In this document: positions 1-6,842 of the stretch, piece after piece
Numbering within the stretch: the first letter of the stretch is position 1
Layout of the letters: each line of letters starts with the position of its first letter
Notes under the pieces: model-generated
What the model was told of the DNA's origin: nothing
What the model saw: the letters and a program-made list of their open reading frames with translations, nothing else
The model's database searches: none
IMG/VR virus record: IMGVR_UViG_3300033145_001678
Span: 1-21,002 of that record
Strand: one strand, 5' to 3'
Length of the DNA stretch: 21,002 bases
DNA from: a virus
Translations under genes and position numbers: made by a program

Positions 1-96
1 CTTGACGAGTTCCAGCCGGTGGATGACGAGCCGCCCCGGCTCGACGAGAAAGCGCCGGTAACGTGCCCGAAGTGCGGCCATGAGTTCACGCCCTGA
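1..96 (+). CDS. C-terminal end of a zinc-ribbon-tailed protein (5' truncated)
   Basis: Frame 1 is open from the window edge and encodes 31 residues ending in TCPKCGHEFTP before TGA at 94-96. The visible part is an acidic, proline-rich linker followed by one CxxC knuckle. The gene overlaps the start of the Mom-family gene by 17 nt. In phage Mu the small zinc-finger protein Com is encoded just upstream of, and overlapping, mom and activates its translation, so a Com-like role is possible. The knuckle here is at the extreme C-terminus, which fits equally well with the tail of a longer phage protein, for example a ParB-like or DNA methyltransferase protein with a terminal zinc ribbon. The N-terminal part is outside the window, so no function can be assigned. 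Confidence 0.7.
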   Translation, partial: LDEFQPVDDEPPRLDEKAPVTCPKCGHEFTP

Positions 97-775
97 CCTG
101 AAACTCGCGTGGTGTTCGCACAAGGCGGTGAAGTACGCTGTCGAGCATTGGCATTATTCCAGACGGATGCCGCGATTCAAGCTCGTATCGATCGGCGCTT
201 GGGAAGACGGCCAATTTGTCGGTGCGGTGATCTTTGGTCAGGGGGCAACGCCAGAGATCGGGAAACCCTTTGGCATGTCGCGCCTCGAAGTGTGCGAATT
301 GGTGCGCGTTGCCCTTCGGGACCGGAAGACGCCGACAAGCCGCATTGTTGCGATTGCCCTGCGGATGTTGCACCGACACTGCCCCCAGACACGGCTCGTC
401 GTATCATTCGCCGATTCGGCCCAGGGCCACATCGGGACGATCTACCAAGCGGGCGGATGGGTCTATGTTGGCTCGTACACGCATCATGCCTACCTCGTGG
501 GTGGCGTCATTGTACATCCGAAGACATTGCATTCACGGTATGGCATTGGTGGACAGTCTATCCCGTGGCTTCGTAAGCATATCGACCCGGTAGCCAGTCG
601 GATCAATGTGCCGCCGAAATACAAGTATGTGATGGCATTCGATCAGGCCGGGCAGGACGTGATTACACCACTAGGAAAGCCGTATCCCAAACGCGCCGGA
701 AGTGATACCGGCGACACGCCGGCCGTCCAGGCCGGAGAGGGCGGATCGACACCGACCCCGGCGCTTACGACATGA
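80..775 (+). CDS. mom: Mom-family adenine modification protein
   Basis: This 231-residue protein resembles phage Mu Mom, a GNAT-fold enzyme that converts DNA adenine to a carbamoylmethyl-type derivative and protects phage DNA from restriction. Family-like features seen here are VEHWHYSRRMP at residues 21-31, the ELVRVAL segment near 73-79, the FADSAQGHIGTIYQAGGW stretch at about 110-127, and a C-terminal tail with KPYPKRAGS and a Gly-rich GGSTPTPAL end. The length is close to that of Mu Mom. The ATG at 80 lies inside the end of the preceding zinc-ribbon gene, suggesting translational coupling, and the stop overlaps the terminase small subunit start (ATGA). A position directly before terS is common for mom-like genes in environmental phages, from memory. 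The catalytic residues were not verified. Confidence 0.85.
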   Translation: MSSRPDLKLAWCSHKAVKYAVEHWHYSRRMPRFKLVSIGAWEDGQFVGAVIFGQGATPEIGKPFGMSRLEVCELVRVALRDRKTPTSRIVAIALRMLHRHCPQTRLVVSFADSAQGHIGTIYQAGGWVYVGSYTHHAYLVGGVIVHPKTLHSRYGIGGQSIPWLRKHIDPVASRINVPPKYKYVMAFDQAGQDVITPLGKPYPKRAGSDTGDTPAVQAGEGGSTPTPALTT

Positions 776-1242
776 AGGGAAGAAAGCCAATACCGTCGAA
801 GATCAAGGCGCTGCGGGGCCACCCGGACAAACGGCCCCATGCGGCGAAGGGTGAGCCTGCGCCGCCACCGGGCCTGCCGGACTGCCCGAATCACCTGTCG
901 CTTGAGGCGAAGGGCGAATGGGCGAGGATCACTGACGAATTGGCCGCCTGTGGCCTGTTGACGAGGATCGATCGGGCGGCTCTGGCCGCATACTGCCAAG
1001 CGTGGGGGCGGTGGGTTCAGGCCGAGCAGGAATTGAAGAAAACCAGCCTCGTAGTCAAGACCACTGCGGGCAACGTCATTCAGAACCCCTATCTGTCCAT
1101 CGCAAATAAAGCGATCGAGATCATGTACAGGTTGCTGGCTGAATTCGGCATGACGCCGTCGGCGAGGTCGCGGATCAAGATCGATGGGCCGCAGCACGAG
1201 GATAAGCTGGAAAAACTGTTGCGGGTCCATAAGGGAGCATAA
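772..1242 (+). CDS. terS: Phage terminase small subunit, P27 family
   Basis: This 156-residue protein begins MKGRKPIPSKIKALRGHPDK, the basic N-terminus typical of P27-type small terminases (Terminase_4). It continues with a helical core including LTRIDRAALAAYCQAWGRW, a predicted winged-helix/oligomerisation region. A conserved segment near residues 119-136 (EFGMTPSARSRIKID) closes the family signature. The small subunit recognises phage DNA and regulates the large-subunit motor during packaging. The start overlaps the mom stop by 4 nt. The stop codon shares one base with the terL start (TAATG), so the genes form one translational unit. Length and context match the family. Confidence 0.93.
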   Translation: MKGRKPIPSKIKALRGHPDKRPHAAKGEPAPPPGLPDCPNHLSLEAKGEWARITDELAACGLLTRIDRAALAAYCQAWGRWVQAEQELKKTSLVVKTTAGNVIQNPYLSIANKAIEIMYRLLAEFGMTPSARSRIKIDGPQHEDKLEKLLRVHKGA

Positions 1243-3893
1243 TGGCCGCCAAGAAGCGCGGACCATCGGCGGTGTCAAAGCGGGCGATCCGCAGCGGGAT
1301 CGATGAGCGGGCGATTGCGGAGGGCTGTTATTTCGACCTGCCGGCGGCGCACCATGTGCGGGAGTTCTTCCGGGAGTTCCTATGTCATAGCAAGGGAGAG
1401 TGGGCCGGCCAGCCGTTTCTCCTTCTGCCGTGGCAGTGGGATGATGTCGTCAAGCCGCTCTTCGGCTGGAAGCGGCGGGACGGCAGCAGGCGGTATCGCA
1501 AGGCTTATATCGAGATCGCCAAAAAATCCGGGAAGGCGCTCGCGTTGGACACACCGCTTCCGACGCCCGATGGGTGGACGGCAATGGGTGATATCGACGT
1601 CGGGGCAACGCTATTCGACGAGAATGGCGAGACCTGCACAGTAGTTGCGGCAACGTCTGTTATGTTGGGCCGCCCATGCCACCGCGTGCATTTCTCGGAC
1701 GATACGGAGATCATCGCCGATGCAGACCACGAATGGCAAACCCGCAGTCTGGCCAAGCACTACAAGATGGGCGTAAGGACGACCGCCGAGATCGCCGCGA
1801 CGATTAGCACTCGCACCGATGGTGCCCGAAATCATTCAGTGCCAGTCGCTGGGCCATTACAGCAGCCGAATCGCGAGTTGCCAATCCATCCATACGTGCT
1901 GGGGATATGGCTTGGCGACGGCCATTCGACTAGCGGCCGCATTACCTGCGGATACGAAGATCTCGCGATTATCGACGAGATACGCAATTGCGGCGAAACC
2001 GTCGAAGAGCGCCCGACGAAGAATGATGGATCAGGCTGTTTTATTATTGGTCGCACTTGTTCGCCAAAGACATCGTTTCAGGCGCGGCTGCGACAGATAG
2101 GCGTCTTCAATAATAAGCATATCCCGGTCGAATACTTGCGGGCCTCAATTCCCCAGCGAGTCGCTCTGCTGCAGGGGCTGATGGACTCGGACGGCTACGC
2201 GGGCGCACGCGGCCAATGCGAGTTCACTACAACCAAGGAAACATTGCGCGATGGGATGCTTGAGTTATTGCGCGGCCTGGGCCACAAGCCAATGCTGGGA
2301 TCTGGTCGGGCGACTATATACGGCAAGGACTGTGGCCCAAAATATCGCGTTCGCTTCCACGCCACGAGACGACAACGAGCCTTTCGGCTTGAGCGTAAAT
2401 GGCGGCGGCAGTTGCCGTCCCCCGACCGGAGCCGCCGGTGCATGATGCGGCAGATCGTGAGCGCGGACGCGATTGAAAGCGTCCCTGTCCGCTGCATAGA
2501 GGTCGATTCCCCATCCCGGTTATATCTTGCCGGGCCAGGCATGGTGCCAACGCATAACAGCACCCTATGTGCGGGCCTGAGCCTGTATCTGTTGATTGCA
2601 GACGGGGAGATCGGGGCCGAAGTCTATTCCGCCGCGGCTGACCGGGAGCAAGCGGGTATCGTCTTCCGCGAAGCGGCTACGATGGTGCGGGCGTCGCGGG
2701 AGTTGGCGGATCACGTTGAGGTCATCGACAGCCGCAAGCGAATCACGTTTCAGCGGACGGGATCGTACTTGCAGGCGCTGAGCCGCGAGAGCGGGTCGAA
2801 CGAAGGCCTGAACATCCATGGCCTGATTTTCGACGAACTGCACGCGCAAAAGACACGGGATTTGTGGGACGCGCTGACCTACGGGGGGGCAGCGCGTCGC
2901 CAGCCGCTCGCCATCGCCATTACCACGGCGGGATTCGACCGGCATTCGATTTGTTACGAACAACGGGAATATGCGCTTCAGGTTTTGGACGGGCGGATAC
3001 CCGACTGGACTTTCTTTCCCTATGTTTGCGCAGCGGACGAGGGCGACGATTGGACCGCCCCGCAGACCTGGGCGAAGGCGAATCCGAGCCTAGGGGTTAC
3101 GGTCAAGGAGGGGGAACTTGCGGAGGCGTGCGCCGAGGCGCAAGCGTCGCCGCTGAAAGAGAATTCGTTCAAGCGGTACAGACTCAATATCTGGACCGAA
3201 CAGGACGTGCGATTCTTGCAAATGAATGAATGGGATGCCTGTGGGAGCGCGGTTGATCCGGAAGCATTACGAGGGCGGCCCTGTTACGCGGGCCTGGACC
3301 TGGCGAGTACGCGCGACCTGAATGCCTTTGTCTTGTTCTTCCCGGACGACGGAAACGCCGTGCTGCCCTACTTCTGGATACCACAGGACACGGCCCGCGA
3401 GCGGGAGCGCAGGGATAAAGCCCCGTACTTGACGTGGGCCAAAGAGGGTCTGATTGAGCTGACGCCGGGCAATGTCGCGGATTACGACCGTATTCGGGCG
3501 CGGGTCAACGAGATTGAGGAGCAGTACGATATTCAAGAGATCGCGATCGATCGCTGGAACTCGCTTCAATTGCAAACGCAGCTCGATGACGATGGATTCA
3601 CCGTTGTCCCCTTCGGTCAGGGCATGGTTTCGATGTCAGCCCCGACGAAGGAATTGGAGAGGCTGATACTCGCCCGTCAACTCGCCCACGGGGGGCACCC
3701 GGTCTTGCGGTGGATGGCGGGTAATATCAGCGTGAAAGAAGACGCGGCTGGCAATATCAAGCCGGACAAGGATAAGTCAACGGAAAAAATCGATGGAATC
3801 GTCGCGCTTATCATGGCGATTGGCCGGGCGATGGTGCGCAAGGAAGGTAGCGACAACGTATACGATGAGCGGGGGCTGCTGTCGGTAGGATGA
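1242..3893 (+). CDS. terL: Terminase large subunit precursor with in-frame intein
   Basis: The 883-residue precursor is the packaging ATPase/nuclease of the HK97-like Terminase_1 group. The first extein (residues 1-98) has the LLPWQW adenine-binding motif and ends in KKSGK, the first part of Walker A. An intein occupies residues 99-439. The second extein resumes at STLCAGLSLYLL, so removing the intein restores KSGKST. Walker B with the catalytic Glu is LIFDELHA at about residues 528-535. The RNase H-like nuclease starts at YAGLDLASTRD (about 682-691). Further acidic positions lie in AIDRW and the terminal DGIVALIMAI segment. Spliced length would be 542 residues, normal for the family. The unspliced precursor should lack a working ATP site. 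Confidence 0.95.
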   Translation: MAAKKRGPSAVSKRAIRSGIDERAIAEGCYFDLPAAHHVREFFREFLCHSKGEWAGQPFLLLPWQWDDVVKPLFGWKRRDGSRRYRKAYIEIAKKSGKALALDTPLPTPDGWTAMGDIDVGATLFDENGETCTVVAATSVMLGRPCHRVHFSDDTEIIADADHEWQTRSLAKHYKMGVRTTAEIAATISTRTDGARNHSVPVAGPLQQPNRELPIHPYVLGIWLGDGHSTSGRITCGYEDLAIIDEIRNCGETVEERPTKNDGSGCFIIGRTCSPKTSFQARLRQIGVFNNKHIPVEYLRASIPQRVALLQGLMDSDGYAGARGQCEFTTTKETLRDGMLELLRGLGHKPMLGSGRATIYGKDCGPKYRVRFHATRRQRAFRLERKWRRQLPSPDRSRRCMMRQIVSADAIESVPVRCIEVDSPSRLYLAGPGMVPTHNSTLCAGLSLYLLIADGEIGAEVYSAAADREQAGIVFREAATMVRASRELADHVEVIDSRKRITFQRTGSYLQALSRESGSNEGLNIHGLIFDELHAQKTRDLWDALTYGGAARRQPLAIAITTAGFDRHSICYEQREYALQVLDGRIPDWTFFPYVCAADEGDDWTAPQTWAKANPSLGVTVKEGELAEACAEAQASPLKENSFKRYRLNIWTEQDVRFLQMNEWDACGSAVDPEALRGRPCYAGLDLASTRDLNAFVLFFPDDGNAVLPYFWIPQDTARERERRDKAPYLTWAKEGLIELTPGNVADYDRIRARVNEIEEQYDIQEIAIDRWNSLQLQTQLDDDGFTVVPFGQGMVSMSAPTKELERLILARQLAHGGHPVLRWMAGNISVKEDAAGNIKPDKDKSTEKIDGIVALIMAIGRAMVRKEGSDNVYDERGLLSVG
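1536..2558 (+). mobile_element. Class 3 (WCT-type) intein with LAGLIDADG homing endonuclease, in terL Walker A
   Basis: A 341-residue insertion lies between extein Lys98 (codon 1533) and Ser440 (codon 2559). It starts ALALDTPLPTPDGW, so position 1 is Ala rather than Cys or Ser. In intein numbering, block B holds DHEW with His65 and Trp67, block F holds Cys320 in VRCIEVD, and block G is PTHN with Thr339, His340 and Asn341. The +1 residue is Ser. Trp/Cys/Thr at these positions with a non-nucleophilic first residue is the published hallmark of class 3 inteins, which splice through the block F Cys and are thought to be of phage origin. Two LAGLIDADG motifs, VLGIWLGDG (121-129) and LLQGLMDSDG (211-220), keep their acidic residues, so homing activity is plausible. 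Parts of the endonuclease region, about 2030-2120, look more AT-rich than the exteins. Confidence 0.92.
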
Positions 3894-4091: not shown

Positions 4092-6842
4092 ATGGGCCTT
4101 TTGGCCGCAATCATAGACCCGAAAGCCGAATTTCGCAGCGGGTTCGCCAATCCCGCGCAGTGGCTTATCGACGCGCTGGGCGCCGGTCCGTCGGCGTCCG
4201 GCATATCGGTCACGGAAGCGAACGCCCTGAAGTTCTCGGCCGTTTACGCATCGCATCGAATCATCGGCGAAACTGTCGGGAGCCTGCCGTTCCTGGTTTA
4301 CAAGCGGGGTGATGATGATGGTCGCCACCGTGCGCCGGAGCACTCAGTATACAAGGTCCTCCACGATCAGGCGAACCCTCATATGACGGCTATGGTCTTT
4401 CGCGAGACGTTGCAGGGGCACATTCTGGGATGGGGCAACGGGTATGCGGAGATCGCGCGGGATGGCAGCGGGAACGTGCGCGAGTTATGGCCGCTGGACC
4501 CCAGCCGGATCGGACCGGTGCTGGCCAGCGATGGCTCGCTCGAATACGTCTACAAGTATCAGAATGGGCAGAATGCGAAACACATCCCCGCCAAAGACGT
4601 TCTGCACATTCCGGGTCTCGGTTTTGATGGCTACATAGGCTATTCACCAATCCGCATGGCCCGCGAGGCCATCGGTCTCGGCCTGGCGGCGGAGCGGCAC
4701 GGGGCGACGTTCTTCGCGAATGACAGTCGGCCGGGCGGCGTATTGGAGCATCCGGGCGTAGTTGAGCAGGAGGCGCATGATCGACTGAAAGCCTCATGGG
4801 AGACGCTGCACAGCCGGGGCAGCGCCCATCGCATTGCTATACTTGAACAAGGCATGAAGTGGCAGGCGACGGCGATTCCGAACGAAGACGCCCAGTGGCT
4901 GGAGAGCCGGGCGTTCCAGGTTCGCGAGATCGCCCGTATATACCGAATTCCGCCGCACCTACTGGCGGACCTCGACCGCGCGACGTTCTGTATGCCCGCC
5001 GACACGGAAGTGCTGACGACGGGTGGTCCCGTCTCGATTGCTGACGTGAATGCGGGCGATGTCGTGTGTAGCTTCGACGAGACGGGCCAACAGCGACAGG
5101 CCACGGTATTACGCTCAGAATGCACCGGCGAAGACGAGATATTGTGCATTCGCACGACCAATCGTAGCGTCAGGATGAATGCCCGCCACAGGGTGGCTAT
5201 AAGGGCGAAGTCGCCGACTCCGCGACCGGGCGCGGGTGGGTATCAGTGCGTGACGTGGGAAACAGTCTGGCGACGGGCTGGCGAATTGAAAGTCGGCGAC
5301 GTACTGATTGCAGCGGACGGCATCGAGAGTGCGGGGCTGGAGCGGTGCCCGACGCGGGACGTGACCGAAGGCTTTGCGGAGTTCTGTGGCCTGCTGCTCG
5401 GCGACGGGAACATCAACAAGAATCACGGCGTCACGATTGCGCGTGCCGCTACGGCGCAGTATATGGACCATTACCGCGATGTAATGGCCGCCGAGTTTGT
5501 CTCTTACGACGGCGGCAACGGGCGAGAAGTACTGACCAAGACGCGGCCCGTGCATATCGGCGAGAGCGACCGGCAGACGCGGTTCTCGTCAGTGCTCGCT
5601 GCAAACGAGTTGACGGAACTAGGACTGGCCGGCACGGCACACACCAAATCGGTCCCCGGATGGGTATTTAAGCTCACGGACAAACTGCGGCTGGCGTTCC
5701 TTCGCGGCTTCCTCGATGCGGATGGTTCCGTTGACAAGAAAGGGCGGATTTCGTATTCGTCGTGCAACGAGAAGATGCTGTCACAGATTCGGCACTTGTG
5801 CATTGCCGTTGGTGTTCCGGTGACGAACATGCGATGCCAGGAAGGCGTGACGACGCTACCTAATGGCAGACAGATCGCATTCCGTCAGTATGCGTTCACG
5901 TGCTCCGACCCCGGCGCGAATCGCCGGATCGGGTCGAATGATCCCCGGTATGTCGCGCGAATGATGGCGGGCAAGCCAATCAATCGCAAGGGCCGCAAAT
6001 ACCCGCGGTATGGCGGCAAAGGCTTTGACGCGCCCGGCATGGCCCTATCGCGCATTACGAGTATCGACCACGATCCCGTGGAAAAAGTCTACGACCTGGA
6101 AGTGGACGGCACGCACTGCTTTATTGCCAACGGGGTCGTCGTCCACAACAGCAACATCGAAGCCCAGGGTATCGAGTTCGTGACCCACTGCATCCGGCCA
6201 TGGCTCGTGCGCTGGGAGCAGGAGTGCAACCGCAAGCTGCTGGCTAACGCGCCGGGTTATTTTTGTGAACATGTCGTCGACGGCCTGCTTCGCGGCGATA
6301 CGGCCAGCCGGTATAGCGCCTATGCGGTTGGCCGACAGTGGGGTTGGCTGAGCACCAACGAGATCCGCCGGCGAGAGAACATGAACCCGATCGACGGGGG
6401 CGACGAGTACCTGGTGCCCATGAATATGACCCCGGCGGCTAAGCGGGCGATCATCGCGGCGCACCGGCCGCTCTTGACAGATATTTGCGGGCGCATCCTG
6501 CGGCGCGAGGCGGGGGCGATCGAGTCAGCCTTGCGCCGCGAGGCGACGTGGAAGACCGAGATAGAGGCCTTCTATAGCGAGCATAGGCAGTTCATCGTCC
6601 GGGCGATTGCACCGGCGATAACGGCGTGCTTGGGCGCATTGCCGGCCACGGTGCGGGGCGATCGAAGCGCGGGTGATTACGCTTGGGGTTTTGCGGAAAC
6701 GCGAGTGCGCCGCGCGATGGCGAAGGCGGCCGATCTCGTTGGCGCGCAACAGACCGCCAGAGAATGTCGCGGCGGCGCGGCGGCGGCGTGGGCGGACGAG
6801 ATATTAACCGAACTGATCGGAGGAGAAAATACCGATGGCTGA
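4092..6842 (+). CDS. HK97-family portal protein precursor with in-frame intein
   Basis: The 916-residue precursor is the dodecameric DNA channel at the head vertex. Family features are SVTEANALKFSAVYASHRII near residues 37-56, followed by SLPFLVY. Further markers are the GNGYAEIARDGSGNV segment and LWPLDPSRI in the clip/stem region. The extein then has FQVREIARIYRIPPHLLADLDRATF (about 275-299), interrupted at the very conserved ATF/SNIE junction. Extein sequence resumes SNIEAQGIEFVTHCIRPW at residue 687. Spliced length is 529 residues. A C-terminal extension of about 110 residues after NPIDGGDEYL is helical and Ala/Arg-rich, longer than the HK97 portal, and of unknown role. The gene is preceded by GAGGGAAT-type ribosome-binding sequence. 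Its last 8 bases overlap the protease start. Confidence 0.95.
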   Translation: MGLLAAIIDPKAEFRSGFANPAQWLIDALGAGPSASGISVTEANALKFSAVYASHRIIGETVGSLPFLVYKRGDDDGRHRAPEHSVYKVLHDQANPHMTAMVFRETLQGHILGWGNGYAEIARDGSGNVRELWPLDPSRIGPVLASDGSLEYVYKYQNGQNAKHIPAKDVLHIPGLGFDGYIGYSPIRMAREAIGLGLAAERHGATFFANDSRPGGVLEHPGVVEQEAHDRLKASWETLHSRGSAHRIAILEQGMKWQATAIPNEDAQWLESRAFQVREIARIYRIPPHLLADLDRATFCMPADTEVLTTGGPVSIADVNAGDVVCSFDETGQQRQATVLRSECTGEDEILCIRTTNRSVRMNARHRVAIRAKSPTPRPGAGGYQCVTWETVWRRAGELKVGDVLIAADGIESAGLERCPTRDVTEGFAEFCGLLLGDGNINKNHGVTIARAATAQYMDHYRDVMAAEFVSYDGGNGREVLTKTRPVHIGESDRQTRFSSVLAANELTELGLAGTAHTKSVPGWVFKLTDKLRLAFLRGFLDADGSVDKKGRISYSSCNEKMLSQIRHLCIAVGVPVTNMRCQEGVTTLPNGRQIAFRQYAFTCSDPGANRRIGSNDPRYVARMMAGKPINRKGRKYPRYGGKGFDAPGMALSRITSIDHDPVEKVYDLEVDGTHCFIANGVVVHNSNIEAQGIEFVTHCIRPWLVRWEQECNRKLLANAPGYFCEHVVDGLLRGDTASRYSAYAVGRQWGWLSTNEIRRRENMNPIDGGDEYLVPMNMTPAAKRAIIAAHRPLLTDICGRILRREAGAIESALRREATWKTEIEAFYSEHRQFIVRAIAPAITACLGALPATVRGDRSAGDYAWGFAETRVRRAMAKAADLVGAQQTARECRGGAAAAWADEILTELIGGENTDG
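4989..6149 (+). mobile_element. Class 1 intein with LAGLIDADG homing endonuclease, in portal gene
   Basis: A 387-residue insertion occupies residues 300-686 of the portal precursor. It begins CMPADTEVLT (Cys1 nucleophile), has a block B-like segment with His67 (ARHRV), and ends VYDLEVDGTHCFIANG then VVVHN, giving the penultimate His386 and terminal Asn387. The +1 extein residue is Ser. This is the canonical class 1 arrangement, unlike the neighbouring terL intein. The endonuclease domain has two intact motifs, FCGLLLGDG (about 132-140) and LRGFLDADG (about 238-246), with both acidic residues present. The insertion site is a highly conserved portal segment, typical of inteins that persist because precise loss is hard. 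Splicing and homing are predicted, not demonstrated. Confidence 0.95.

Follow-up and report, generated by a model that had tools for sequence, protein, structure and literature searches.

Identity and boundaries of the insert

The gene for the large terminase subunit (TerL) in the viral record IMGVR_UViG_3300033145_001678 carries an insert in the loop that binds ATP, which raises the question of what kind of element this is and whether it could still splice, spread or even control the packaging of DNA. We analysed the whole 21,002-nucleotide stretch of this record (the window; Table 1), and the reading we favour, at a probability of about 0.95, is that of a full-length class 3 intein in the Walker A loop of a tailed-phage TerL, predicted to be splicing-competent and to possess an intact homing endonuclease domain. 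It is built on what could be established directly, namely the anatomy of the element, its signature residues, its predicted fold, its exact empty site and its conservation.

The initial annotation had placed the insert at 1536-2558, exactly between the Walker A Lys and Ser, and both the interval and the position hold. The insertion point is TerL codon 99, and the 341 inserted residues continue in frame and with 0 stops inside the open reading frame at 1242-3893, giving a junction that reads IAKKSGK-intein-STLCAG. Excision of the intein in silico yields a TerL of 542 residues that matches the solved structure of HK97 TerL (6z6d) at E 1.8e-69, the IARKNGKTG of HK97 aligning over the IAKKSGKST of the spliced protein. 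With the spliced TerL as query against IMG/VR, 49 relatives were obtained, 39 of which cover the insertion place; together with the phage record L070 and with L146, whose intein lies elsewhere, these give 41 homologues in which the Walker A site is uninterrupted (e.g., IEIPKKNGKSELAAG, VEIPKKQGKSELAAA) and follows the consensus (K/R)K(N/Q/S)(G/A)K(S/T) with no insert. Three TerLs (L062, L075, L076), for which the blast alignment merely extended into an intein, were left out of this count. Because the 41 empty TerLs continue through the place, the boundaries between Walker A Lys and Ser are exact; a junction displaced by one residue was ruled out by the same homologues. The GK/ST junction, the TerL Pfam matches and the HK97 alignment assign the insertion to the TerL1-a type, between the Walker A Lys and the Ser/Thr of the TerL ATPase.

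Table 1. Features of the terL intein and of the adjoining genes (positions in the window).
Feature	Position	Strand	Basis or remarks
Mom-like DNA modification protein, adjoining the terminase genes	80-775		Pfam Mom E 7.5e-47; PHROG 1384
Small terminase subunit	772-1242
terL ORF, large terminase subunit with intein, 883 aa	1242-3893	+	TerL_nuclease E 2.5e-49; TerL_ATPase E 4e-26
N-extein, 98 aa, ending in IAKKSGK	1242-1535	+	Walker A Lys (-1) at 1533-1535
Class 3 intein, 341 aa, Ala1 to Asn341	1536-2558	+
Cys48, counterpart of the DnaBi1 redox-partner cysteine	1677-1679	+	Alignment with 6bs8; 157/179; role from PMC6195587
Block B, His65 (B:10) and Trp67 (B:12)	1728-1736	+	Block numbering from PMC5222942
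First LAGLIDADG motif, LGIWLGDG, acidic Asp128	1899-1922	+	Asp in 176/179
Lys194 of the conserved NKHIP motif, endonuclease domain	2115-2117	+	177/179
Second LAGLIDADG motif, LLQGLMDSDG, acidic Asp219	2166-2195	+	Asp in 176/179
Cys320, fourth position of block F, proposed to initiate splicing as nucleophile	2493-2495	+	179/179; aligns with class 3 Cys of 6bs8
Block G end, Thr339-His340-Asn341	2550-2558	+
C-extein, starting at Ser+1 (STLCAG)	2559-3890	+
Portal ORF, HK97-type	4092-6842
Portal intein, 387 aa, class 1	4989-6149		Cys1, terminal HN, Ser+1, LAGLIDADG motifs

Class 3 signature and proposed splicing pathway

A phmmer search against all PDB sequences returned the class 3 DnaB inteins 6bs8, 6rix and 6riy with E values of 1e-34 to 1e-35. 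The two halves of the terL intein align, one from residue 1 and the other to residue 341, and the alignment skips only the endonuclease domain, which is absent from those inteins; the best E value of 1.4e-35 against solved class 3 inteins excludes a chance resemblance. Ala1, Trp67, Cys320, Thr339 and His340, on which the class 3 (WCT) assignment had originally been based, were all confirmed in the translation, as was Asn341, and with His65 and Ser+1 they make up the full WCT signature. The assignment itself is borne out by the homology to 6bs8, 6rix and 6riy and by conservation over an alignment of 179 sequences (besides the terL intein itself, phage records supplied 19, and IMG/VR and GTDB genomes 159), in which Cys320, Thr339, His65 and Asn341 are invariant and Trp67 is kept in 178; over the 74 clusters at 50% identity the WCT residues are unchanged. 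Alignment with known class 3 inteins, which the initial annotation had proposed as a check, sets Trp67, Cys320 and Thr339 within blocks B, F and G, and comparison with the solved structures and the 178 relatives puts them at B:12, F:4 and G:5. Residue 1, as fixed by the empty-site homologues, is Ala and so none of Cys, Ser or Thr, and the +1 residue is Ser, one of the two that the published class 3 criteria allow at this position (PMC5222942). Features of inteins at large are likewise present, in the HINT fold (model and PDB matches), blocks A, B, F and G, and the terminal His340-Asn341.

Our scheme for the terL intein is modelled on the published class 3 pathway (PMC5222942), in which the block F Cys would initiate splicing and the reaction would pass through two branched intermediates. 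The precursor would fold first, after which a centre of Cys320, His65 and Thr339, packed by Trp67, would make a direct attack on the bond between Lys(-1) and Ala1; the N-extein would then be transferred from Cys320 to Ser+1, and with cyclisation of Asn341, assisted by His340, the exteins would ligate as IAKKSGKSTLCAG and restore the ATP-binding loop. The splicing chemistry, like the endonuclease activity and the inactivity of the unspliced motor, is extrapolated from characterised relatives. Since the ATP-binding loop stays split until splicing, the unspliced TerL precursor should be without ATPase activity; in the RadA protein of P. horikoshii a P-loop intein blocks the ATPase, according to work cited in PMC6195587.

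Cys48 and the idea of a packaging switch

That the intein acts as a post-translational switch on packaging is speculation, and no result obtained here demonstrates regulation. In its most specific form, the class 3 intein would have been domesticated as a redox or zinc switch, such that a Cys48-Cys320 disulfide or zinc bound to Cys320 pauses splicing and packaging waits for reducing conditions. In its favour, splicing of M. smegmatis DnaBi1 is reversibly blocked by a Cys48-Cys118 disulfide and by zinc on Cys118 (PMC6195587, PMC7360933). The pair expected of a redox-sensitive intein, Cys48 and the catalytic Cys (here Cys320), is present in the terL intein, and Cys48 is kept in 157 of the 179 class 3 sequences and in 57 of the 74 clusters at 50% identity (77-88%). 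It is commonly retained in class 3 relatives, which may be of specialist interest as the DnaBi1 redox paper calls it non-conserved (PMC6195587). This conservation does not demand a switch, however, because Cys48 is required for the splicing of DnaBi1 as such (PMC6195587). Enrichment of Cys48 at P-loop sites, as would be expected of a switch, was not found (39/53 clusters, versus 17/20 elsewhere). Mildly against the idea is also the behaviour of five phage TerL inteins that, according to Kelley et al. (2016; PMC5050341), spliced fast or readily to ligated product in a reporter, and an intact endonuclease accounts for the persistence of the element without any regulation. We therefore consider such a domestication unlikely, and we are just as doubtful of the broader proposal that Cys48-Cys320 forms a redox/zinc gate on packaging and that gating of this kind is class-wide in class 3 inteins rather than a mycobacterial peculiarity; if true, redox/zinc gating would extend to phage motors across class 3 inteins. 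First and foremost the terL intein is a mobile element that occupies a conserved site, and any part it might play in regulation is hypothetical.

Endonuclease domain, predicted fold and intactness

Both LAGLIDADG motifs retain their acidic residues, in keeping with their initial description as intact: Asp128 and Asp219, each found in 176 of the 179 aligned sequences, are accompanied by Lys194 and Lys288, and all four positions are almost invariant among the relatives. The Pfam endonuclease model PF14528 matches residues 208-252 (E 6.7e-5; score 23.5 bits, cut-off 22.5). An AlphaFold2 model derived from 67 sequences reached a mean pLDDT of 96.4 and a pTM of 0.94, and a Foldseek search of the PDB with this model aligned PI-SceI along its entire length (E 2.5e-20, query TM 0.80), with the class 3 DnaB inteins matching its splicing part (target TM 0.82-0.86). 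The LAGLIDADG endonuclease would cut intein-free TerL alleles at the conserved site, whereupon the intein would be copied in, and as judged from motifs and model the terL intein is very probably a potentially homing element.

A decayed intein, in which splicing or homing has been lost, would be in line with the single copy and with a PF14528 score barely above the cut-off. We regard this as very improbable, given that there is no stop or frameshift, that the conserved catalytic positions of both domains are all intact, that the AlphaFold model is confident throughout and that TerL is conserved downstream of the intein. TerL is essential to tailed phages, and a loss of splicing would thus be lethal. 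The element was found on one contig and lacks close relatives, the most similar intein being about 53-57% identical. Its third-position GC (0.657) lies just under the range of the remaining ORF blocks in the window (0.66-0.84), a difference that is compatible with a foreign origin but proves nothing.

Neighbouring genes and a second intein

The left end of the window is a standard tailed-phage head operon, which comprises the genes for the Mom-like protein, both terminase subunits, the portal protein, the head protease, the major head protein and connector proteins. The adjacent packaging genes terL and portal bear inteins of two different classes. The portal intein is inserted between ATF and SNIE of the HK97-type portal, where many portal homologues are empty. 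Its relatives on five IMG/VR contigs are 56-61% identical and all follow RATF, and the TerL of these five contigs is devoid of any class 3 intein; only eight phage records hold even a distant relative of it.

That the terL intein belongs to class 1 or class 2 and only resembles class 3 is highly improbable, for although an Ala at residue 1 is by itself also compatible with class 2, the full WCT set with Ser+1, the direct homology to inteins whose class 3 mechanism has been proven biochemically and the contrast with the neighbouring portal intein, which has Cys1 and lacks a block F Cys, all argue for class 3.

The Pfam model Intein_splicing (PF14890) and the NCBIfam model intein_Cterm both match the portal intein and gave no match to the terL intein. 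As PF14890 matches only 1 of 67 aligned class 3 inteins at E 0.01, its silence here reflects a gap in the model and is not counter-evidence. With 66 of the 67 members missed, annotation that relies on Pfam will overlook most class 3 inteins, which are under-annotated as a result.

Relatives, insertion sites and movement

Relatives of the terL intein (E <= 0.01) are present in 762 phage records, and alignment-based scans confirmed at least 586 in IMG/VR and at least 570 in GTDB genomes among the candidates examined; when IMG/VR was scanned with the intein at the protein level only, 0 relatives were returned, whereas the alignment-based scan of IMG/VR did detect them. Many phages and bacteria thus carry relatives at this kind of site, in host proteins that include TerL, DnaB-like helicases and various other P-loop proteins. 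Among the 178 relatives whose junctions were read, sampled by their similarity to the terL intein and therefore biased as to percentages, 139 have GK before and Ser or Thr after the intein; the +1 residue is a Ser in 108 of the 178 and a Thr in 70.

In a tree of 84 rows the terL intein pairs with that of L072 (SH-aLRT 88, not starred), among other Walker A TerL inteins. The C-extein of L072 is 30% identical to that of terL, far more diverged than the intein (about 53-57%), unlike L071, for which identity is 51% in both intein and C-extein; this hints, as weak evidence, at a movement of inteins between TerL genes.

In L146 the Walker A site of TerL is empty (LEIGRKNGKTTLAAG) and a class 3 intein lies further along, after GAEIFSVA. 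Two WCT inteins combine the class 3 set with a first residue of the class 1 type, Cys1 in L132:2498-3577 and Ser1 in L061:2001-2993 (Mycobacterium phage Blubba gp203); Tori and Perler reportedly described Ser1 in a class 3 intein of a related mycobacteriophage. The large terminase subunit of Escherichia phage FL04 (L067) carries the annotation "replicative DNA helicase DnaB", which apparently stems from similarity to the intein, since the equivalent gene in the related phage MIZ5 is annotated as TerL.

Comparison with known inteins

The kind of element is already known: Walker A TerL inteins, class 3 TerL inteins and TerL inteins active in both splicing and DNA cleavage were all published in 2016. 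In the passages of Kelley et al. (2016; PMC5050341) drawn on here, TerL is the protein that most often hosts inteins in mycobacteriophages, the TerL1-a site separates Lys from Thr in the Walker A motif, a WCT logo is given for phage class 3 inteins, and the TerL1-b and TerL1-c inteins cut their own empty alleles in vitro. Mycobacteriophage TerL1-a shares with the terL intein its type of host protein and its position between Walker A Lys and Ser/Thr, but it belongs to other phages, and the same passages name a relation to class 3 DnaB-b for TerL1-c and TerL1-e, not for TerL1-a. The environmental virus contigs L071-L077 and L079 of IMG/VR have full-length class 3 inteins at the Walker A site of the same TerL family; these are 45-53% identical to the terL intein, so that about half of the residues differ. 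What the terL intein adds to a family known in hundreds of phages is a clean, full-length class 3 example from an uncultured phage, along with a precise empty site for homing studies.

Also among the closest known counterparts, M. smegmatis DnaBi1 and M. chimaera DnaB1 (6bs8, 6rix, 6riy) share the WCT residues, Ala1, Cys48 and Ser+1 and are likewise inserted after the GK of a P-loop. His65 and Trp67 bear identical numbers in these inteins, while Cys320 corresponds to Cys118 and Cys124, and Thr339 to Thr137 and Thr143, in M. smegmatis and M. chimaera, respectively. Both are, however, mini-inteins without an endonuclease, and their host is a replicative helicase instead of a terminase.
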